DNA of 64,000 bases from Pisaster brevispinus (lineage: Eukaryota > Echinodermata > Asteroidea > Forcipulatida > Asteriidae), in NCBI GenBank assembly GCA_023634235.1, contig JAMKCF010000007.1, positions 17,676,592 to 17,740,591 on the forward strand, in the 5' to 3' direction. Under the pieces are notes generated by a model. The model had not been told where the DNA came from and made no database searches. It saw nothing but the letters and a program-made list of their open reading frames with translations. Positions within the stretch are counted from its first letter, which is position 1; each line of letters starts with the position of its first letter. A program made the position numbers and the translations under genes. Positions 1 through 61,330 of this stretch are shown here, in pieces.

Positions 1-490
1 TTTGTCTTTTGTTTTAATAGTAAGGAATGGAATTCGAAATAATCCCCAGCATGAATGCGTTCAAACGCACATATTTATTGTTGGCTACAGTTTGCCTTTG
101 TGAACTTGCTGAGGTTTCCGTGTGTATAGTAGGAGCGATCCAAAGCGGTTGTTGATCCCATTGTCAACTGCGTTGATGGAGACCTTGATCTTAAAACACT
201 GGGGTAATGGGAGTGATTGACTGGATGCCCTATAGCCTGGCTGTTACCCCCCATGTCCTAGCCTGGTCTTTACAGCCACGGCCGTGTATGGCTTTACTAA
301 TGAAAACCTCCAACCCTTGGATCAAGGAATCTCATGAGTTGCTTGCAGTGAAGAAATGGTGATTGGCGAATAATTTTTGAGACTCCAGTCGTCACTCCTA
401 AGCCATTTAGTTCATCCACATCAACATAACAGAACCGAAACTTTAAGTACAACAGCCTGTAACATCATATTTGTTTAATGATTTGGGTTT
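1..490. other. Non-coding stretch, no gene recognised
   Basis: I see no open frame of useful length, no splice-flanked coding segment and no RNA gene here. It borders the tail of the tRNA-centred repeat that starts at about 475. Confidence 0.5.
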
Positions 491-670
491 GAACGAAGGA
501 AAATTGACTGGAGCGGGACTTGAACCAACGACCTCCGGATTAACGTACCGGCTCTCTACCAACTGAGCTATCCAGCCCTATGTTGGTGGTCTCCCTATTA
601 ATCAATATCTTTGTTCGGGGGTGCCAGTCAGAAGCCATTCAACCGTAAGCTGGCGTGATGCCAGGGATCA
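475..670 (-). mobile_element. tRNA(Asn-like)-derived repeat, copy 1
   Basis: On the minus strand, 506-577 folds as a complete 72-nt tRNA cloverleaf. The acceptor stem GGCTGGA pairs with TCCAGTC, the D arm is GCTC/GAGC, and the anticodon arm CCGG/CCGG carries a loop ACGTTAA with anticodon GTT. The T arm contains GGTTCAAGTCC, a good B box. No CCA is encoded. C instead of T at position 33 and a T-T mismatch at the base of the anticodon loop argue against a functional tRNA. The tRNA lies between the inverted motifs GAACGAAGG (491-499) and TCTTTGTTC (608-616). In tRNA orientation a body of about 90 bp precedes it and a short tail follows. At least four more copies occur in the window. I call it a tRNA-derived SINE-like repeat; the exact family is not known to me. 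Confidence 0.8.
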
Positions 671-679
671 CACTCATTG

Positions 680-1422: not shown

Positions 1423-4400
1423 TGATTTTTAAAGCAATAATGTATGATAAATGTAATCAATGTTTATTTAAACATAACACAATTAAACAAACAAAATTAA
1501 ATTATAGGCAGCCCAGATTGTTTAAGAAGCTAACTCAAAAAATACCTGAAAATTTATACTTTAAATTTAAATAGCCTTTTTTTTTTGACTCGAGAAAATT
1601 GTAAGCTTCGTTTAATTTAGGTGGAAGTTAGTTAGAATCTAAGTATGATTTTTTCCCTTTTTTCGAAATCTTGAAAATAACAATTTCACGTCCATCTGCC
1701 ACGTATAGTGACCTGTTACATGTTTTGTTTGTGTGTGCATTGCTCCTGCCATATGCAGAATGTGTTGTGTTTTTATGTGTGTGTTTTTTTTTCGTTTTGA
1801 AACGGCATCATCTGTCCAAACTCGTTCAGAAAAAGAAGAAGAAAAAGAAAACACAGATAACAAACTTGGTTGATATTACTATTCTGAATTGTATAGGCTA
1901 GCATTTTTTTTTCCTGAAATGATTCTAATTTTGTGGAGATATTTTCTCGTTGGTTTGTGCATTGCATCCATTTCTTTAAAACCGGCCCAACGTTTCCTTT
2001 TACCGAGTATTCAGGAAAACAGTTTACATTTATATAACACATATGCAATCTTTTGGAACTGATTAACGAAAAAATTGCTTGCATAGGCCAATATATATGT
2101 AACGCCTGGAGCGCCCCATATTTGTTTTAGTGTGATTTTTTCCCCGGGGGTTTCATCACCGATCAGGTCTGAAGAAGAACTGACTCCTTTAAGTTGAAAG
2201 TTTATTATAGAACCCTTTAGAGTATCACTTTCTAACTCGACATTGACCTTTATCACTAGTATCACACCGAGGTTCAAAGGTGGGAATAGTCTGGTCTCCG
2301 TCCTACCCGGGAATCGTAAGTGCGAGCATTATCGTGTAAAGGGAACCTAACACCTATAGCGGCACCATGCTGGAGGCGTGTGGAGTAATGGATACGGATG
2401 CGTATTTGCAATGTGTTTGCAAATACGCTGTAGGGCCTACCTCAAGTATTACTGTTGCTATATTTTCAGCTTAACAAGATGTGCAAAGCACGTTAATGCA
2501 AAGCCAAACGAACTAAGCAAAGGTTTGACCTTTATGACGTCACGGTTCTCTTCCATTCCAAGCAGCTCAACTTGAGGTTGTTCTGAAAATAGTCAGACCT
2601 CTGTCACGGATCACCGCTATAATCGTATTTGCTTCTACAGGGAAGCTATATACCAACAAAGATGGCTTGATAAAGGTCACAGACAAATTGTATATACAGT
2701 TATTATACATGGATATCAAAGTAAATGATGGCACTTCACCTCGGCAATGGTATACTTGGCTAACTTGACGAGGCGTCACTCATCACTCTACGCACGGTTT
2801 AGATATTTGTACACGCGATGTCAAGCTAGCGTTACATCCTTGGTGCATGTATTTCACCGCTGCTGTATATTGTTTTTCTACAGCAAGTTTATGCATTGGT
2901 TTTTATTTTCAGAGGGTTCGGAGGTAGACAAAATTTTCTTCTGTATCATTGTCAATGAAAATACATTTTCTTTTCTAAAAAAAGAACAAAACATTAACAT
3001 TGTAGACTATTATAAGACGGCGTGATATTTATTTTGATCAGGACATTGTCAGTTTCACACATATCCGCATGAATGAGTTGCTACAGATAAGCGAGTTACC
3101 AGAAAAGTTCCATGTGAGTGACAAGTTCTCCTCTGACTCTTGATGGAAAAAAAATCGCATAGTGCAATGGAACTTTACGGTAAACAGCTCGTGAAAAAAG
3201 GCAAGTTTACACATCATTTAGTTCACAACAAACACACGGTTTGGGAAGAAGAGTTGTGTCCTGCTGTCAACAGGAAATTAACACAACATGGTGACACGTT
3301 CAAAACATCTTAACGAGACATTCGTCCTCGGGAAACAAAAAATAACAATAGTCTGGCGTTGATGCAGTATGTTACTAATTTCTCGTCATTATTTTGAAAT
3401 AAAAAGTTGCTTCTATAACTCCGTGATACCTTGTCAGTACCCGTTTCGTTACCAGTTTCGAGTCAAACATTCTAAACGCTCTCTGTGTGGGTACCATCAA
3501 CGCACTAATTATAGAGCAAGGGGCGTAGGGACCCTATTGTTGTTTTGAAACAAAGCATTACGAGGTTCTTTTGCGCAAAGTAGGCTTAAAGTAGACGCGA
3601 TTTGTCAGGAGTTGTTCTGATTTCAGGGTTTTTCACCGATCTCCCTGCGACTTCAGAGTTTCTCGAGAGAAGCAAACTTGCCTTCACAGAGGTGAGAAGA
3701 CTTGCCCCTTGTTCTTTTTGAAAGAATTTAGAGAGTCTGTAAACATCTAACATGTAAAATTATGTTTATTTAGGGCACCTCCTTTCCACACCAAGTGGAA
3801 GTTGATGTCAAGTTTTCAGGATTTTTCATTTTCTTACAATCTCACCCCAGTTAAAGAGACACCCGTGCAGCTATCATTAATGGATTGGGTTTTTTTTTTT
3901 TTTGCGTTTTAGTTTCCGTGGTTATAATTACCGCGCTAAAGTTCCCCCTCAAACATATGTAGAAATGTGGACAGGGAAATTGAGAACATATCTGAATGTA
4001 AATAGTTCGGCACCTTCCATGGAATGTTTATAAAATGTAATATTATTTCATGGCAAAATGCAGAATAAACGCAGTTATTCCCACTGTCAATTTCTTATCT
4101 GAATTGGCTAATAAATAAAAAGAACAGCAAAACTGTCATCAGGCATTTTTCTTGCCTTTTTTTTGTCAATTTACTATGTCACCATGTTATGCTCAATGAG
4201 TAAGTTCACGGCAGCCGAGTTGTTTACTTACTGTATGCACAACACGTACGCGCCCCTACGTGTGAAGTCCGGATGTAACATTGGCCCGTGGATTTTACAA
4301 ACAGACAGGCTGCAGTGCAGTTTTTTCCAACATTCATCATACTCTATCCGTTAGAATGAGGTCAATCAATGCCTGCCCTCATAACCCCAAACAACACATG

Positions 4401-5046: not shown

Positions 5047-5820
<774 letters not shown>

Positions 5821-7240
5821 ATTATTATACAGTTACAAACAACTAGTAAATTAATGTTTAGGCCCCTACAGTGTTCAAACCAAAATATTAACAAATATAG
5901 AATGAACTAAATATTGTATTATATGAATATAAATAAAACTATAAAATACCTAAAAACGTGGAAATATTTATCAAAACGTCACAGCAGCCCACATCACATA
6001 TAAACCACCATCTATTCCTCGAGAGATAAATCTTGATGGAAGTCGTAATTTAAGTCAGCCCAGGAAGAACTCAAGACGAGAAAATTACCTGTTAGCTTCA
6101 ACTTAGCTTACAAAGACTAGTGTACTCCATTATTACCCGTGCCTTGAATCAGTGCGTGACGTCTGATAACGTCCCAGTCTGCATGGTCATGAAATATACA
6201 CGCCGTGTATCGCTGTCGACTAAGCAGGCTTAGTTATTTATGCACTGTAGACATAAGTCTGTTGAAAGTTAATGAAGCCTCGCACTCGTATACACTTTGG
6301 AATTAGATGTGAGGTAGAGAAAAAAAGGGTAAATTACCATAGAAAATTGTCTTCACTTATATAGAAATAGTTCCATGTTAAATAGTCTAGTTCTTGATTT
6401 GTAAATAAGACCCACTAGTTTTTATTACTATGTGCATTGATTACTATTTGTAATTGAAACAGGTCTTTAAATGTTTTAACATTTTAGATGATTTTGATAG
6501 TCAGTTTGCATCGATGTCAGACGTTTACACGATGACAGCGCACTGACATTTTGCTGGTAGTATTTGCAAAGTGTGTTTCTATTTGAAGCCGCTCTCAACA
6601 GATCGTTTAAAATAAATGCATTATATTTTTTGCTGGCTACGGCAGAGATAAACAAAAGTATGGCATAATGCGGTTATATCATCTAATTAAGAACGACCGT
6701 TTGAAAAAAAACCAAAACAAACTACAACACCTCACGCATCCCATCGTTATATGCACTGAATCCAATATTCAACAATGGCTTGTTTATTTCGGGTAGGTCG
6801 ATCTTGACCTTCGGAAATCGAATCGCGTGTCGATTGGACGTGTTTGCAGGCGACGTTTGTTCCTCGCTTTGCTATTTTAATGGGTCGAAGTTTGAATTCA
6901 CTTTTCGTGATGGTTTCAAAGGATGTATCAAAAATACTATTGTTCGCAAAAAACCCTGACCGTTTTAATACGCTTATTAATTTAGAGTTATTTATTTATT
7001 GTTTGTTTATGTACCTATTTCTGTATTCATTTCTGTAGTTCTTTCTTTAATTAGATGATTTATTTATTTAGGTAATTTATTTTTTTAGGCCTAATTATTT
7101 ATTTATTTATTTAACTACTTATTTATTTATTATTATTATATTTTTTTCTAATTTATTTATTTATTAATGATTTTTTGTAAACAACTTTTAAATATTATTC
7201 AACTTTTTAAATTAATATTTATTTATTATTACTGTTTTTA
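5821..7240. other. AT-rich non-coding stretch with TTTA repeats
   Basis: 5821-6840 shows no gene. From about 6990 to 7215 the sequence is dominated by TTTA/TTTATT low-complexity repeat, which ends at the next tRNA-centred repeat. Confidence 0.5.
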
Positions 7241-7249
7241 TATGAGGGG

Positions 7250-7760
7250 CGGGGTTTGAACAAAGACACATCGACTAGAGCAAAAATCGAACCTGCGACC
7301 TCCGGGTTGACGTGCCAGCACTATAACTCAGCTATCTAGCCCTAATGTTGGCGGTTTTCCTATTTTGTCAATATCTTTGTTCGGGGGGGGGGGGTGTGGG
7401 GTGCCATTCAGAAGCCATTTATCCTGTAACTGCCGTATAGCAAGTGATCATACATGACTTTACGAGGCAGCAGAGGGATTACCTTATCAGGGAAAGCGAC
7501 TTCTTTAAATTCAAGTATACAAAGTTTTACACCACTAGGGAAACTGAATGTGTAAATGTTTAACATAATATTGGGTTAAACTAATACAATTTACTAGAGC
7601 GGGACTTGAACCAGCGACCTCCGGATTAATGTGCCGGCGCTCTACCAATTGAGCCATCAAATCCTCATGATTGCGGTCTCCCTATTTTGTTTGTATGTAT
7701 TTGTTCGGGGTGCCAGTCGGAAGCCATTTTATTAATGTTTGACACCATCTGTTTTTCTCT
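7250..7760 (-). mobile_element. tRNA(Asn-like)-derived repeat, tandem dimer
   Basis: Two tRNA-like segments on the minus strand, about 7273-7341 and 7592-7663, lie 319 bp apart start to start, with a homologous body and tail between them. GAACAAAGA (7258-7266) and TCTTTGTTC (7374-7382) flank the first tRNA, as in the other copies. Both tRNAs have substitutions in the acceptor and D arms, so they are decayed. A run of 13 G interrupts the body next to TCTTTGTTC at 7382. The spacing matches the 317-bp dimer at 40.2-40.6 kb, so dimerisation is a property of this family and not an isolated event. Confidence 0.8.
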
Positions 7761-13365: not shown

Positions 13366-14915
13366 TCTATTGATAAAGAGACTTCACTCTCCATTATTGG
13401 TCAGAAACTTTTCGTGGTTACTTCATGATACCGCAAGCAAGCGATAAATTCACCGGCGTACCTTTAATTTGTTTTCTCTCTTTGATATGGTTGGGAAGGA
13501 ACCTGTGGAAGAAAACCCGACTCTCTTTCGGCCACTCTCGAGGCTTGTTTTTGGCCTTGGAGGAAAAATAACACCTTTTCCCGCTCTGTACCGCAAGCAA
13601 GAGGCTTGTGCAAACACATTTCCAAACACTTTTGTTATTGCACGGTGGTATATTCACCTGAAGGGAGCACGACAACAATTTAATTAGAGGAAGCAAACAT
13701 AAAATTGTCTCCCTGCCGATGGTTGATTTTTTTGGGGTAATGTTTCGTTACAGAACAGTTCTGGGTGACAGACTATGACTAGTCTGGTCACGGATTGAGT
13801 ATTGGATATAACAAGAATTAATGTGCACAACAACAGAGCAAACTGGTGGTTTTCCATTATGTTATTGTCTTCGTGATGTTTTAAATTATTGCCAATAAAA
13901 CCGGCCGTCTGCACTGATACGCTCATTCGACCGGAAAACAACCGTCCTGGCGGTTTCTTTACATTTTGGTTTTCGCGGTTCAAATATTCACGGTTTATTA
14001 TTAGAGTGTGGTTTGTTAAAATGAGAGACACTTCATTTAACCTAGTGTTGTTTTGGTTCCAGTGAGCTTAAAGGAAGCGGATGACATTGAAAAAAATATG
14101 AATACTTGAAATACAGTTTTGAGAAAATATGAGTAAACAATTTAAATTTGATCGAGCGAGCCCGTAATCCGATTTACACTTTTAAAGTGAAAATCTGTTG
14201 ATGTAACAAAACAGTGAAAACATTTTAATGTGGCTTTTTCCCCTCGTGACTCCGGTGACTGATTAAGCTTAAATTTTCACTGGTTTGTTATTTCATGTAA
14301 AAATTCGGATCACTCGAAATGCAGATTCTGGACTTGCCACGTAATTGTTAGCCGCATGCTTTGAAGGGCAGGGAAATTGTTTGTTTACCTGGACATCTGT
14401 TTGTACTAAATAGCTATATGCATTTTAAGAAGCCTTATATACACGTGGAATTTAACATTTCTGGACGAAGGTTAATTTCAAACACAGTGTAGTTTGAACA
14501 TGATGAACGGTTGAATGTATGTTTAGTTGTAACTCTTTTATTGTATTGTTGTACTATGTTTTCAATCAAAATACTATATTTCAATAAACATGAGTAATAA
14601 GCCGCTTGCACTGATGTCATGTACGTGAAAAATGTTCCCTGATACTCTGTGTTGATGCTGATGTTGTTGTTGGGGGTTTTGTTTTGTTTGTTGTTGTTTT
14701 TTTGATAGCCGATTCGAAACCTCTCGAAAATGTACGCACCTTGTCAAAGACTAAATCGTACTTCTGCAATTGTGTAGAAATTATAGTTGGTGAAATGCTA
14801 CCGAAGCGTTAGAGGGACTTTGACGGTGAAATAAAGACAAATTCATATTTATGACTTGCATTTCATTATTATGACTTCAGACTCGTAACTAAAACTTGGG
14901 GTTGAACAAAGAAGA
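13366..14915. other. Non-coding stretch, no gene recognised
   Basis: Includes a small TTG/T-rich tract near 14655-14705. The open frame at 13684-14031 (minus, 115 codons) has no recognisable motif and no convincing splice context. Confidence 0.4.
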
Positions 14916-15015
14916 ATAGACTAGAGTTGGTTTTGAACCAATGACTTCCGGACTAACGTGCCGGCACTCTATACCAACTGAGCCATTTACTAGTTGTTGG
15001 CGGTGTCCTTATACT
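14890..15015 (-). mobile_element. tRNA(Asn-like)-derived repeat, decayed copy
   Basis: The minus-strand tRNA-like segment at about 14919-14992 keeps the B box, anticodon arm and D arm but has a degenerate 5' acceptor side and an extra base in the D region. GAACAAAGA precedes it at about 14904, as in other copies. The body is lost beyond about 15010. Confidence 0.7.
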
Positions 15016-40220: not shown

Positions 40221-40244
40221 TTAATATATATATATATATATCGT

Positions 40245-40625
40245 TGGTCGTTGGTTCAAGTCCCGCTCCAGTCAATTTTTCTTTGTTCAAACCCAAACTA
40301 TTTAAATAAAATTTCCCAGACACTTTCCCTTGTGGTTTATTACTTGATATTTAATATTAAAAAGTCGCATCCCCTTAAGGTGATCCCGTGGCTGCCGCTT
40401 CCCAGGTTGAATCGTAAACGTGGGTGTGATCCCTGGCTACACGGCAGTTAACGGTTGTATGGCTTCTGACTGGCACCCCGAACAAAGATATTGATTAATA
40501 GGGAGACCGCCAACATAGGGCTGGATAGCTCAGTTGGTAGAGCGCCGGTACGTTAATCCGGCGGTCGTTGGTTCAAGTCCCACTCCAGTCAATTTTTCTT
40601 TGTTCAAACCCAAACTATTTATATA
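40245..40625 (+). mobile_element. tRNA(Asn-like)-derived repeat, tandem dimer, best-preserved copy
   Basis: The second unit holds a full 72-nt cloverleaf at 40519-40590 with all seven acceptor pairs (one G-T), intact D arm, anticodon GTT and B box GGTTCAAGTCC. The first unit is 5'-truncated and starts inside the tRNA T arm at about 40247, next to (TA)n. The direct repeat TCGTTGGTTCAAGTCCC starts at 40248 and again at 40565, a period of 317 bp. The tRNA is bracketed by GAACAAAGA (40480-40488) and TCTTTGTTC (40597-40605). The order is body, tRNA, tail, so the tRNA sits near the 3' end of the body in contrast to ordinary SINEs that start with the tRNA. Confidence 0.85.
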
Positions 40626-41820
40626 TATTTTACTGTAATTTGTTTCCATGTTAAATTCACAACTATGTTTCAGATACTATATATCACAATATCAGCAGGC
40701 CTACTTTTTTCTAAGATGAGAGCTTTAGATTTCCACTAAATCTGAAACTGAATCTCGTTGGAGGGATTTATTGTTAGAAGATGCCGAATGCTATTAAGAA
40801 AGTCTCCGAGATGACTTCAAATCTTTTAAGATGCTTATCACTAACCGCGGTAAAGGTTTTAAACCATGCGGCACAACCTTCATAGTTTCACCCACAAAAA
40901 AAGGAAGAACGAAGAAGACGAAGATGTTAATCAAAAAGTAACTAACAGGGGTGAAATAATGGACGGAATAGAAAAAGAAGGGAAAAGGGTGTTGAAAACA
41001 ACGTAGACTTCTTCATTAAACAAACCAAAGCTCTTAAAAACGCGATCAACTGTACTCAAGAACAAAACGTCAAAAGTTTGAATTCGAAAGCGGAAGTTCA
41101 ATTTGCCATAAGTGTTCTTTTATACGTCGTTCAAATCAAACTGTTGCCCCGAACAAAGACTAGATATACAAATCATTAACATGTCAAACAAAGCACATGA
41201 TTTCGTAACAATGCTTTTTGTTTTGATTGAAATCATGTCATGTTTCTTCAAAATATGTGTCTAGAATATTGATCAGTGCCTGCAATGAATCGAAGGGCAG
41301 GATCTAGACAAAGTACTATAAATTACAAAATAAAATTGTATCCATTACTTCCCTTTAAAGTGACACTTGACAGGTCACGCTCTGATACGCACCCTGGTCA
41401 GGGTTAGGAAATGCAAGTTTCGCGGGTCAGATTTTTGTATAAGGCAAACGGATGAGTCGAGCTGTGTGAGCTACAGATACCATAGAATGTCAATCGTCTG
41501 GCTGTATTGTAGGCTCAGGTTGGGCCCCTCGTCCTTTAACCCCAATGGACGAGCGAGTACAGCTTGCCACCAGTCTTGAGTCAATGATTTGAACACATTT
41601 GCACAGTAGTGTTGCTATGTTTGTTCCTTTGTTCTACCTCGAATGTTTTAGTCTAATAGATGGCTTGGGTTGCTTTGTTTTTATTTATGTTCTCTGACTG
41701 TATCTTTGAAGTGGTGACAAAGGGATTGGTTGTGAGGGAGTATCACCCAACATGACCACAACGGTCCTTGGTTCAAACGTCTGTTAGTCCTGAGGAAAAC
41801 ATTAAAGAATCCGCCACTCG
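40626..41820. other. Non-coding stretch, no gene recognised
   Basis: Purine-rich in part (40900-41050). No exon is supported. Confidence 0.4.
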
Positions 41821-41824
41821 GTAG

Positions 41825-42420
41825 AAAACAATCAAAGGAAAGAAAGGTGAAGAAAACAAATCAAAGGAAAGAAAGGTGAAGAAAACAAATCAAAGGAAAG
41901 AAAGGTGAAGAAAACAAATCAAAGGAAAGAAAGGTGAAGAAAACAAATCAAAGGAAAGAAAGGTGAAGAAAACAAATCAAAGGAAAGAAAGGTGAAGAAA
42001 ACATATCAAAGAAAAGAAAGGTGAAGAAAACAAATCAAAGAAAAGAAAGGTGAAGAAAACAAATCAAAGAAAAGAAAGGTGAAGAAAACAAATCAAAGAA
42101 AAGAAAGGTGAAGAAAACAAATCAAAGGAAAGAAAGGTGAAGAAAACAAATCAAAGGAAAGAAAGGTGAAGAAAACAAATCAAAGGAAAGAAAGGTGAAG
42201 AAAACAAATCAAAGGAAAGAAAGGTGAAGAAAACAAACCAAAGGAAAGAAAGGTGAAGAAAACAAATCAAAGGAAAGAAAGGTGAAGAAAACAATCAAAG
42301 GAAAGAAAGGTGAAGAAAACAAATCAAAGGAAAGAAAGGTGAAGAAAACAATCAAAGGAAAGAAAGGTGAAGAAAACAAATCAAAGGAAAGAAAGGTGAA
42401 GAAAACAAATCAAAGGAAAT
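41825..42420 (+). repeat. 29-bp minisatellite, about 20 copies
   Basis: The unit contains GGAAAGAAAGGTGAAGAAAA plus CAAATCAAA. Units vary mainly at one site (AAAGGAAAG against AAAGAAAAG, the latter clustered at 42005-42110), at ACATATC and AACC variants, and at a 1-bp shorter CAATC form near the two ends. The strand is almost pure purine apart from T and C at fixed positions. The clustering of variants suggests expansion by block duplication. Confidence 0.95.
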
Positions 42421-42850: not shown

Positions 42851-43053
42851 TAGAGAGTATACAATGAAACTTCTGCTCGATAAAGCTCAGGGCAGTTGAA
42901 GGTAGTCGAAGCGATTGCAAAATGCTGCGGCATAATTTCAGTTACCCAAAATCATTGCACCTTCTTTTCGGTTGTGCCTCACTCTCCAATAGTAATAATA
43001 CTCGTGAATTGATTGTCAACACGTGTGGTTAACGTTAGCTATCGCTGTCATTT

Positions 43054-43200
43054 GTCAATATCTTTGTTCGGGGGTGCCCGTCAGAAGCCATTCAACCTGT
43101 AACTGCCGTATAGCCAGGGATAACACCCAAGTTTCCGATTTATTAAACCCTTGAAGCGACAGTACAAAGACGCCCTCAAGAGGATGCGACTTTGTATATA
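43054..43200 (-). mobile_element. Body fragment of the tRNA-centred repeat
   Basis: TCTTTGTTCGGGGGTGCCCG at 43061 through ACTGCCGTATAGCCAGGGAT and the GGATGCGACTTT word matches the bodies at 0.6, 7.4 and 40.4 kb. The tRNA part is absent, so this copy ends at the inverted motif. Confidence 0.75.
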
Positions 43201-46004: not shown

Positions 46005-46344
46005 CACAGTGGTCGCTTCTATTCAATGGAGTTTACTGCAGCGCAGGCAGTTCGTGAAATCACCAATCGCGTATGAAAGTGTTCTTCTGAGTCAGCTATG
46101 ACATATGCACTTGGTGCCATGTGAAATCCGATGGTCGATGTTGATGAGACAACTTCGTTGTGTGTGCGTGTGTGTCGCCGCTTTTGTTAACTGCATTCCA
46201 CACAAAGCAGGGATTAACACAAGTGGGAGTATGGGTACTACAATCAATATCACGATGGTAAACACTCTGTGTTTGGTAATTTGGACTGTTCGAAAGCGGT
46301 GGGCCTATTCTTTACCCACCGCTGTAACCAGACTGTGTTGGTAT

Positions 46345-46353
46345 TTGTCTAGG
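46345..46353 (+). other. Possible 3' splice site ahead of the coding exon
   Basis: A T-rich stretch, TGTTGGTATTTGTCTAG, followed by G places a plausible acceptor seven bases before the preferred ATG. It would exclude the upstream in-frame ATG at 46105. Unverified without transcripts. Confidence 0.35.
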
Positions 46354-46359
46354 GACACA

Positions 46360-46755
46360 ATGCTCCTCCACGCTCCACTGAACACTCCCCTGCGTATCCT
46401 AACGCTTTTACTGTGGTGCAAGTTTTCACTGGTACATTCAGCACCAGCCTTGTCCGAGATGTCCGAGGAGGAGTACCTATCTGCTTACAGCTCCATTGAA
46501 AATATTCGCTCACCTGCTGACGGGGACGGGCCAGGCTTCAAGTTTGCTTACGAAGGGTCTGCAGTTGCTACAAACATGTACGAAGGAGTCATCATCTGTC
46601 TGCTGGCCATCACAGCCTTCGTTGGACTCGTCGTGTGGGTTCTGAAGTCGAACTTTGAAGAGAGGCAGACTCGGCGAATGAGACGGGAGGCTTCACTGAG
46701 GGACAGGAACTCTAACGTGAGCCCCTTGATGACACCCGACTCGGAGGAGTCATGA
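46360..46755 (+). CDS. Small type I single-pass membrane protein, unrecognised family
   Basis: 131 residues. Residues 1 to about 28 form a signal peptide with core LRILTLLLWCKFSLVHSA and a likely cut after HSA. Residues 29-75 are a short acidic ectodomain with tyrosines and serines. Residues 76-95 (GVIICLLAITAFVGLVVWVL) are a transmembrane helix followed by a stop-transfer lysine. Residues 96-131 are a cytoplasmic tail rich in Arg/Glu (ERQTRRMRREASLRDR) ending in proline-directed Ser/Thr sites (SPLMTPDSEES). The orientation is inside-positive, as expected for type I. The ATG has A at -3. Just upstream TTTGTCTAG/G at 46344-46353 looks like a splice acceptor, so the 5'-UTR may come from earlier exons. 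The frame is open back to an ATG at 46105 (216 codons), but that extension has no signal peptide at its start and reads as non-coding. AATAAA at 47867 is a possible poly(A) signal. Family and function unknown. Confidence 0.65.
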   Translation: MLLHAPLNTPLRILTLLLWCKFSLVHSAPALSEMSEEEYLSAYSSIENIRSPADGDGPGFKFAYEGSAVATNMYEGVIICLLAITAFVGLVVWVLKSNFEERQTRRMRREASLRDRNSNVSPLMTPDSEES

Positions 46756-54248: not shown

Positions 54249-54644
54249 GAAGAAGAAGAAGAAGAAGAAGAAGAAGAAGAAGAAGAAGAAGAAGAAGAAG
54301 AAGAAGAAGAAGAAGAAGAAGAAGAAGAAGAAGAAGAAGAAGAAGAAGAAGAAGAAGAAGAAGAAGAAGAAGAAGAAGAAGAAGAAGAAGAAGAAGAAGA
54401 AGAAGAAGAAGAAGAAGAAGAAGAAGAAGAAGAAGAAGAAGAAGAAGAAGAAGAAGAAGAAGAAGAAGAAGAAGAAGAAGAAGAAGAAGAAGAAGAAGAA
54501 GAAGAAGAAGAAGAAGAAGAAGAAGAAGAAGAAGAAGAAGAAGAAGAAGAAGAAGAAGAAGAAGAAGAAGAAGAAGAAGAAGAAGAAGAAGAAGAAGAAG
54601 AAGAAGAAGAAGAAGAAGAAGAAGAAGAAGAAGAAGAAGAAGAA
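54249..54644. repeat. GAA/TTC trinucleotide array, 132 perfect units
   Basis: 396 bp of uninterrupted (GAA)132, a pure purine strand. Forward frames read as Lys, Arg or Glu runs and the reverse as Ser/Phe/Leu runs; none is a protein. Long GAA/TTC tracts are known to form intramolecular triplex (H-DNA) and to impede transcription and replication. Confidence 0.98.
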
Positions 54645-60500: not shown

Positions 60501-60604
60501 TTCTAAGTGTATTGGTTGAGCCGTGGCTCTTATGTGATATGTTGGTATTTTAATCATTCAAAACAAAATGTGTACAATTTAGTATAAAGACAACTAAACA
60601 AGCT

Positions 60605-61330
60605 CAACCAAGAATGCAAACGATCTGGACTTATTAGTGCACAAAGGAAAGATAAAATTCATGACCAATACCTCTTTTCAAGAAACTCTCAAGGATGTGT
60701 GTTGTTTTCGGAGGGTGCAGAGAAATCCTCCGCGACAGAAATCTACCAATATCACTGAAGAAAAAGGTGCATGATCAATGCGTACTCCCAACAATATCTT
60801 ATGGATGTCAAACATGCATGGGCGATAATTCAGTACATACATAATGAATTGGTTACCACTCAGAGGGTAATGGAAAGAATAATGCTAGGTATTACACGGA
60901 GAGACCAGAGACCTGTCCAAGCAATCAGAGACAAAACAAAAGTGACAGAAATCACAAAATATGTCCAAAAAATGAAATGGAAATGGGCAGGGCACGAAGC
61001 AAGGACGACAGACAGCAAATTGAATAAAAACCACAGAATGACAACCCATAATAGGCAAAAGATCCAGAAGTAGACCCCCCCCTAAAAAAAAATAAAAATA
61101 AATAAATAAATAAATAAATAAACAAATAAATAAATAAATAAAAAAGATAGAGATATGGAGAAGAACGCAGGGAAGACCTGGACTAGAACGACCAAGGCAA
61201 GGGCAACATGGAGGAATCTGACAGAGGGCTAAATCCTGCGGTGAAAGGACGATACCCAGGTACAAGGTACAAGGTACAAGGTACAAGGTACAAGGTACAA
61301 GGTACAAAGTACAAGGTACAAGGTACAAGG
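60605..61330 (+). pseudogene. 3' end of a LINE reverse transcriptase, RTE-like, frameshifted
   Basis: 60767-60825 in one frame reads VHDQCVLPTISYGCQTC; from about 60850 the +1 frame reads QRVMERIMLGITRRDQRP, then IRDKTKVTEITKYV and MKWKWAGHEART. This order (YGCQT block, MERxMLGIT block, KWxWAGHxAR block) is the thumb/C-terminal region of non-LTR retrotransposon reverse transcriptases of the RTE type. After an A-rich (AAAT)n insertion at 61085-61145, another frame gives RRNAGRPGLERPRQG, the expected GRP motif. At least one frameshift and the inserted low-complexity tract make it inactive, and all upstream domains are absent (5' truncation). Clade assignment is from memory of motif patterns. 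Confidence 0.8.
61257..61330 (+). repeat. 7-bp tandem repeat GGTACAA, about 10 copies
   Basis: Tandem GGTACAA with one AGTACAA variant, directly downstream of the LINE fragment. Short tandem tails are typical of the 3' ends of RTE-type LINEs, so it may be the element's tail. Confidence 0.85.

Follow-up and report, generated by a model that had tools for sequence, protein, structure and literature searches.

Penelope-like elements (PLEs) transpose by a route that is described as poorly understood (PMC11167929). In the account given for the Poseidon PLE, both target strands are cut and extended, AT-rich DNA is preferred, and reverse transcription has two adjacent internal start sites on the RNA, which explain an optional tail of 30–40 bp in genomic copies (PMC11167929, Frangieh et al. 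2024). PLE copies are reported as partial tandems and as inverted pLTRs, the latter most often head-to-head, with a tail on one inverted pLTR and a target-site duplication of 9–10 bp (PMC3846280). Animal non-LTR retrozymes, as outlined in PMC7229834, are noncoding tandem repeats of 150–450 bp, ranging from dimers to long arrays, without LTR, PBS or PPT, and are defined by a hammerhead. Helenus (TRIMp3) is described as a group of TRIMs with a tRNA in their LTRs (PMC10886601, Kojima 2024).

The locus described here lies in a 64-kb stretch of DNA (the window) and carries a 317-bp unit that recurs in arrays across the genome and resembles each of these systems in part. Like animal retrozymes, the unit is noncoding and tandem, and among known systems these come closest to it in size and tandem organisation; unlike them, it has no detected hammerhead (type I) and carries a tRNA-like domain. 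Being short and noncoding with a tRNA-related part, it also resembles tRNA-derived SINEs, but its tRNA-like domain is not at the 5′ end, and it occurs as exact tandems and head-to-head arrays with two 3′ ends. With Helenus it shares a tRNA within the repeated part of a retroelement, whereas its units abut directly, without LTR boundaries or an internal region, and its candidate duplications in the window are longer than 4 bp.

The likeness to PLEs lies in architecture. As in Penelope and Poseidon, the arrays show partial and full tandems, 5′ truncation upstream, head-to-head inverted copies, two 3′ end classes (an optional tail) and AT-rich targets and, like a PLE of this genome, they are associated with (TA)n. 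Unlike PLEs, the unit is 317 bp long and protein-free, has no hammerhead that we could find and a tRNA-like domain instead, and reaches a run of 30 units. Because 317 bp is too short for an ORF with reverse transcriptase (RT) and GIY-YIG nuclease, we say that the unit works like a PLE and do not file it as one. The published PLE signature combines partial tandem copies with head-to-head inversion, AT-rich targets and an optional 3′ tail, and on this analogy we consider the unit to be, with a probability of roughly 0.78, a non-autonomous retroelement inserted by Penelope-type machinery. Three of the features that point to such machinery, namely the (TA)n association, the two 3′ ends and the head-to-head joints, had not figured in an earlier, sequence-only reading of this DNA.

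Scans of viral contigs and genome contigs, and a search for exact strings in papers, found no relatives outside this genome; in the phage-sequence scan, the best 20 of 614 matching records overlap annotated tRNA genes. No tRNA-bearing PLE-like repeat appeared in titles or abstract openings among the literature records listed, and Repbase or Dfam may already name the family.

The unit and its copies in the window

Self-comparison of the window yields five family loci, of which the array at 40246–40619 is on the forward strand and the other four are on the reverse strand (Table 1). The forward array comprises 1.18 copies of the noncoding unit, 57 bp plus one full unit, and therefore has a single full tRNA-like domain; the start of its truncated unit falls within the T arm of that domain. 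The older array has two tRNA-like domains 319 bp apart, its upstream unit being cut on the 5′ side. The sequence-only reading had taken both for head-to-tail dimers with periods of 317 and 319 bp; the periods hold, but neither array is a full dimer (1.18 and about 1.5 units), and the three remaining copies, all on the reverse strand, had gone unmentioned.

Table 1. Features of the five family loci, in window coordinates
Feature	Position	Strand	Basis
5′-truncated unit (unit positions 261–317)	40246..40302	+	blast to 317-bp unit
Full 317-bp unit	40303..40619	+	97–98% identity to consensus of 85 genome units
Left inverted-repeat arm GAACAAAGA	40480..40488	+	sequence; pairing with right arm
Right inverted-repeat arm TCTTTGTTC	40597..40605	+	sequence; alignment
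tRNA-like domain, anticodon GTT, base 33 = C	40519..40591	+	ARAGORN; Rfam 54.9 bits
T5 run, pol III terminator-like, directly 3′ of tRNA-like domain	40593..40597	+	sequence
(AT)n, 5′ side of array	40224..40241	.	sequence; genome-wide (TA)n association
(TA)n immediately 3′ of type I end AAACTATT	40620..40628	.	sequence
Older array, about 1.5 units, period 319	7252..7727	-	self-comparison
tRNA-like domain of full unit, older array	7272..7341	-	Rfam 34.9 bits
tRNA-like domain of truncated unit, older array	7591..7663	-	Rfam 36.8 bits
Candidate target-site duplication AAAAACAG past 3′ end of older array	7232..7239	.	mate 7749–7756
Single 5′-truncated copy with tRNA-like domain 505–577	482..676	-	Rfam 46.9 bits; self-comparison
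Body-only copy, ends before tRNA-like domain	43050..43196	-	self-comparison
Old copy, just tRNA-like domain and 3′ tail	14896..15012	-	self-comparison

Within the unit, a body of about 180 bp precedes the tRNA-like domain, and the domain is bracketed by the inverted-repeat arms, both as had been noted from the letters alone. An inverted repeat of 9 bp with this geometry occurs in 173 of 20,000 random window placements. The (AT)n on the 5′ side of the array is probably part of a target microsatellite.

In a comparison restricted to the 3′ domain, both halves of the older array differ from the family consensus at 23/158 (14.6%) and 25/157 (15.9%) positions, and those of the younger array at 6/155 (3.9%) and 1/53 (1.9%). 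The halves of each window dimer are thus equal in age, so the dimers are not chance neighbours, and we reject chance adjacent insertions as their source. Together with the 317-bp arrays found genome-wide, this supports the earlier proposal that a composite tRNA repeat is spreading in tandem form.

The flanking direct repeats measure 9, 8 and 8 bp at three of the five loci and 5 and 4 bp at the rest. Repeats of at least 8 bp, seen at 3/5 loci, occur at 2.2% of 5,000 random placements; locus-by-locus shuffles give 0.07–0.10 for three loci and 0.43 and 0.70 for the others. One of the three candidate duplications of 8–9 bp is TATATATAT, and the copy at 482–676 has a candidate 8-bp duplication, AAACAAAT, at 469–476 and 693–700. 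Two of the three stand 17–23 nt in front of the point where clear homology begins at the 5′ side (17 nt for the AAACAAAT mate; the mate of AAAAACAG lies about 20 nt ahead of the first recognisable homology), and copies in (TA)n are unreadable for duplications. The evidence from target duplications is therefore weak. We rejected a hAT-like DNA transposon with 8-bp duplications, as the left ends vary among copies and the inverted repeat is internal.

ARAGORN calls the tRNA-like domain a 73-nt tRNA, in agreement with the earlier reading of its anticodon. Decoding tRNAs have U at base 33. By manual reading of the alignment, the five tRNA-bearing window units compared all have C at base 33, the sixth window unit (40246–40302) beginning 3′ of this base and standing outside the comparison. 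Pair 31–39 is open in the same five units, and the remaining stems of the domain vary among them, partly with both sides changed. From C33 in the five aligned units and the unit context, we reject a functional tRNA gene: judged by its sequence, the domain is not a decoding tRNA. Annotation tools nevertheless call such unit copies tRNA genes. Among 85 full genome units, all drawn from the first of the two locus samples described below, the anticodon loop reads ACGTTAA in 78, the 5′ part is invariant in 85, 83 keep both bracket arms intact, and in 80 the T5 run directly follows the domain; these units are near-identical, and unchanged features are therefore no proof of selection.

The tRNA-like domain occupies positions 217–289 of 317, with array 3′ ends at 317 or about 48 nt beyond, and it ends 28 nt ahead of the first inferred RT start site. 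Coming directly after the domain, the T5 run would be expected to halt pol III ahead of the body, which leaves the domain badly placed for making a full-length transcript; as a terminator-like sequence, the run speaks against full-length unit RNA being produced by pol III via this domain. A 129-nt hairpin that includes the tRNA-like part folds on itself with z −5.2. Compared with the predicted rod, a forced cloverleaf costs 14 kcal/mol in the window copy at 40519–40591 and 13 kcal/mol in 505–577, a difference on which we base no argument. The whole 317-nt unit has z −2.0 when linear and z −2.0 as a circle against mononucleotide shuffles, and we set aside a viroid-like rod argument because this fold is just mildly better than shuffles.

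Inside the units, tRNA is the sole Rfam family at gathering score. Sub-threshold matches to miRNA, lncRNA and one plastid family (E 0.6–4.6) were taken as chance, no ribozyme family was found inside units (Rfam, E up to 5; E up to 0.5 in four loci), and the hammerhead motif CTGANGA is absent from both strands of the unit consensus. A retrozyme with a known ribozyme was rejected, no hammerhead having been found in the units. Outside the units, a Hammerhead_1 match of 25.8 bits (gathering 34) lies at 3918–3963 (−) of locus L010, just past the (TA)n of a six-unit array.

Several other features of the window were recorded in passing. The body-only copy has a 3′ end that matches neither 3′ end class, and a processed or deleted form is possible. 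An ORF at 46102–46755 (+) has two homologues, of 92% and 77% identity over 73% and 80%, and its last 102 residues resemble, by eye, a small single-pass membrane protein. Simple repeats include (GAA)132 at 54249–54644 (100% matches), a TTG array of 770 bp at 5047–5816 and a 29-bp minisatellite of 20.7 copies (98%) at 41823–42419. Peptide fragments at 60588–61070 resemble the end of a LINE RT by eye only.

Ends, joints and uniformity of the genomic arrays

The assembly searched comprises 549.7 Mb in 512 contigs. A diagnostic 34-mer of the unit (at most 2 mismatches) has 1,454 genome matches, 733 forward and 721 reverse, with a control of 0, and the junction between the type I 3′ end and (TA)n (at most 1 mismatch) has 169, again with a control of 0. 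We read 64 loci in two sets and counted 109 arrays (at least 60 bp, at least 92% identity; others dropped). Set 1 consists of the best 40 of 2,757 candidates, including the window copy, and is biased to best matches and young copies; set 2 consists of 24 loci from 100 listed places among the 1,454, all exact matches and all on contig C1. Probable duplicated segments (L016/L017, L057/L058 and L059/L060/L061) were each counted separately.

The two ends of the arrays behave differently. A 3′ end is readable in 106 of the 109 arrays: 54 end at unit positions 312–317/1–3 (class I, terminal sequence ...CAAACCCAAACTATT), 34 at positions 38–60 (class II, ...TTCATGACTTGATA), about 50 nt away, and 18 elsewhere, outside both inferred start sites. 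TATATATA lies within 30 nt of the 3′ end in 43/54, 32/34 and 2/18 of these, respectively, at a background frequency of 0.5–0.6%, so that 75 of the 88 class I and II ends, whose two points lie in an AT-rich stretch, adjoin TATATATA/(TA)n. The 5′ ends of the 109 arrays, by contrast, fit a uniform distribution along the unit (KS p=0.87). Among the 53 readable arrays outside head-to-head pairs, TATATATA is within 30 nt of the 5′ end in 29 and absent in 24. In locus L062 (about 2295 onward), telomere-type ACCCTAACCCTAA repeats adjoin an array at its 5′ edge.

Neighbouring arrays are likewise joined with a preferred orientation. Within 60 bp we counted 27 head-to-head and 8 tail-to-tail neighbours (binomial p=0.002, with some joints coming from duplicated segments), the latter with essentially (TA)n between them in 7/8. 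The head-to-head joints fall in 26 of the 64 loci, with none in the other 38; 13 overlap by 1–9 bp, 2 are flush and 12 are separated by 1–43 bp. When both outer ends of a head-to-head pair could be typed, 12/17 pairs have one end of each class (p=0.053), so that a tailless arm paired with a tailed one is the commonest combination. An earlier grouping, of set 1 only and under other limits, gave 49 groups: 28 single, 15 head-to-head pairs and 6 others.

Contig C1 gives a view of array length. The 100 listed places there fall into 27 clusters, of which 13 hold a single place and the largest holds 32. Same-strand neighbours are exactly 317 bp apart in 53 of 63 cases, 29 of these 53 lying within one 30-unit run. 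That run belongs to the largest cluster, with 30 places in one orientation at exact 317-bp steps followed by 2 in the opposite orientation (G000, C1:13749732–13758958, ending in L068 and L069). Only the two ends of the 30-unit cluster were read, and L045 begins within its cluster. The G000 cluster is a nascent satellite, arranged head-to-head. Of the 28 loci in the contig-C1 sample, 11 have a head-to-head joint, 19 have an array longer than 347 bp, and 7 have one array only, of at most 347 bp. The sequence-only reading had named a picture that would count against it, of tailed monomers beginning with the tRNA and brought together by chance into dimers; this does not describe the family as a whole, although short single copies do occur, as in the 7 loci just mentioned.

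Units of one array tend to share a template. The distance between units of one locus is 0.0075 for the 83 same-strand pairs and 0.0063 for the 20 opposite-strand pairs, compared with 0.0144 between loci (3,467 pairs). Typed at six common sites of polymorphism, 13 of 21 same-strand arrays with at least two full units carry one haplotype, whereas shuffling gives a mean of 1.9 uniform arrays and a maximum of 7 in 5,000; with 11 sites, which include alignment edges, 9/22 loci are uniform against 1.1 by shuffling. The remaining 8/21 arrays are mixed. In the five arrays with at least four full units, 6/26 variable columns are common to two or more units; the two arms of L047 differ from each other; and the strictly nearest unit is in the same locus for 19/71 units, a figure depressed by ties among near-identical units. 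These four observations argue against a perfect single circle for each array, and multimeric or switching templates, or later exchange, must have had a share in array formation.

We weighed three other origins against these data. One is a satellite spread as DNA, in which extrachromosomal circles or unequal exchange produce arrays that re-enter fragile (TA)n tracts. The exact period, the 30-unit run and the greater likeness of arrays within than between loci all suit it, and unequal exchange may well have lengthened the long arrays. The polarity does not: re-entry of circles should give like ends, whereas 88/106 3′ ends fall at two points and 5′ ends are uniform, and head-to-head joints outnumber tail-to-tail ones by 27 to 8. 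We therefore regard spread as DNA as quite unlikely for the family, while the growth of long arrays by unequal exchange may have occurred.

Still less likely is a tRNA-related SINE moved by a LINE, with dimers arising as the RT jumps between linear RNAs. The tRNA-like domain, the 5′ truncation and the 8–9 bp candidate duplications at 3/5 window loci would fit, and proper SINEs are reported to be able to form tandem multimers (PMC10702118). However, the tRNA-like domain is at the 3′ end and is followed by T5, there are two alternative 3′ ends and head-to-head arrays, and random jumping would mix haplotypes, whereas 13/21 arrays have one. An ordinary SINE was rejected, given the 3′ tRNA-like domain, exact tandems, head-to-head arrays and two 3′ ends. 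A Helenus-type TRIM, an LTR retrotransposon with a tRNA in its LTR, is highly improbable: it would account for a tRNA inside the repeated part, and tandem arrays are reported for one Helenus (PMC10886601), but the units lack fixed repeat boundaries or an internal region, their 5′ ends fall everywhere, they form head-to-head arrays, and the window candidate duplications are of 8–9 bp against the 4 bp given for animal Helenus (PMC10886601). The same spread of 5′ ends, absence of an internal region between units and head-to-head arrays led us to drop the earlier suggestion of a small LTR-like product.

A Penelope-like element at the same targets and a possible route of insertion

Insertion by Penelope-type machinery, our preferred reading, would need a PLE protein, and ORFs for both of its parts stand beside unit arrays: one with RT similarity (L013:2–1813; RVT_1, E 2.9e-10) and one with GIY-YIG similarity (L046:3730–4899; E 1.8e-7). 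A 59-bp piece of the PLE 3′ end lies within 60 bp of an array in 23/63 loci. Counted within loci that had been picked for the arrays, 39/47 PLE 3′ ends are followed by TATATA, and so are 12/16 of those more than 150 bp from any array, against a background of 2%. Unit arrays and PLE both sit beside (TA)n. The unit has no 11-mer in common with any of the three PLE stretches compared, so that its link to this PLE consists of a common target and end structure and not of sequence. Besides this lack of common sequence, the 24 arrays without TATATATA near the 5′ end, the 38 loci without a head-to-head joint, the mixed haplotypes and the 18 3′ ends outside both start sites count against the Penelope-type reading.

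A route consistent with these observations can be proposed. The PLE protein, with RT and GIY-YIG nuclease, would cut both strands of a (TA)n tract, and each DNA end would prime cDNA synthesis within the element RNA at one or other of two sites, inferred from the array 3′ ends, that lie beyond the tRNA-like domain. The RT would then travel round a circular RNA or along a multimeric one, producing tandem cDNA until it stopped at random. Joining, often across a few shared bases, would finally link the two cDNAs to each other or a single cDNA to the opposite target end. A rolling-circle RNA template is possible. The tRNA-like domain may serve as a recognition signal for the RT or for an RNA-processing enzyme, and some of the (TA)n next to the arrays could be a tail that the RT itself added.

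A more specific version, which we think unlikely, has host tRNA-processing enzymes replacing the hammerhead. RNase Z or RNase P and tRNA ligase would cut multimeric array transcripts at the tRNA-like domain and close 317-nt RNA circles, which the PLE protein would copy in rolling-circle fashion, with target-primed reverse transcription starting at each of the two ends of a (TA)n break. If this version were true, the unit would be a ribozyme-free, tRNA-driven counterpart of retrozymes, and a tRNA-like domain doing the hammerhead's job would tie the origin of tandem repeats and satellites to tRNA processing.

Under the broader Penelope-type reading, the unit is a short, young, noncoding element with more than 1,000 genome matches, whose ends would record where the RT started, where it stopped and how the cDNAs were joined. 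It offers a way to test whether the template of PLE-type reverse transcription is a circular or a multimeric RNA, and whether extension of both target ends takes place in vivo.

Two minor observations concern the PLE and its neighbourhood. At 1937–1995 of L009, and similarly elsewhere, the PLE 3′ end has CTGACGA...GAAA around a short stem, with the look of a minimal hammerhead by eye; Rfam gives no hammerhead at PLE 3′ ends at E up to 0.5 (L009, L013 and L044). At 2896–4314 (−), L041 carries a 473-aa ORF that resembles an RT but is of another kind (RVT_1, E 0.006, below the cut-off), at whose start a PLE 3′ end and (TA)n can be seen by eye.
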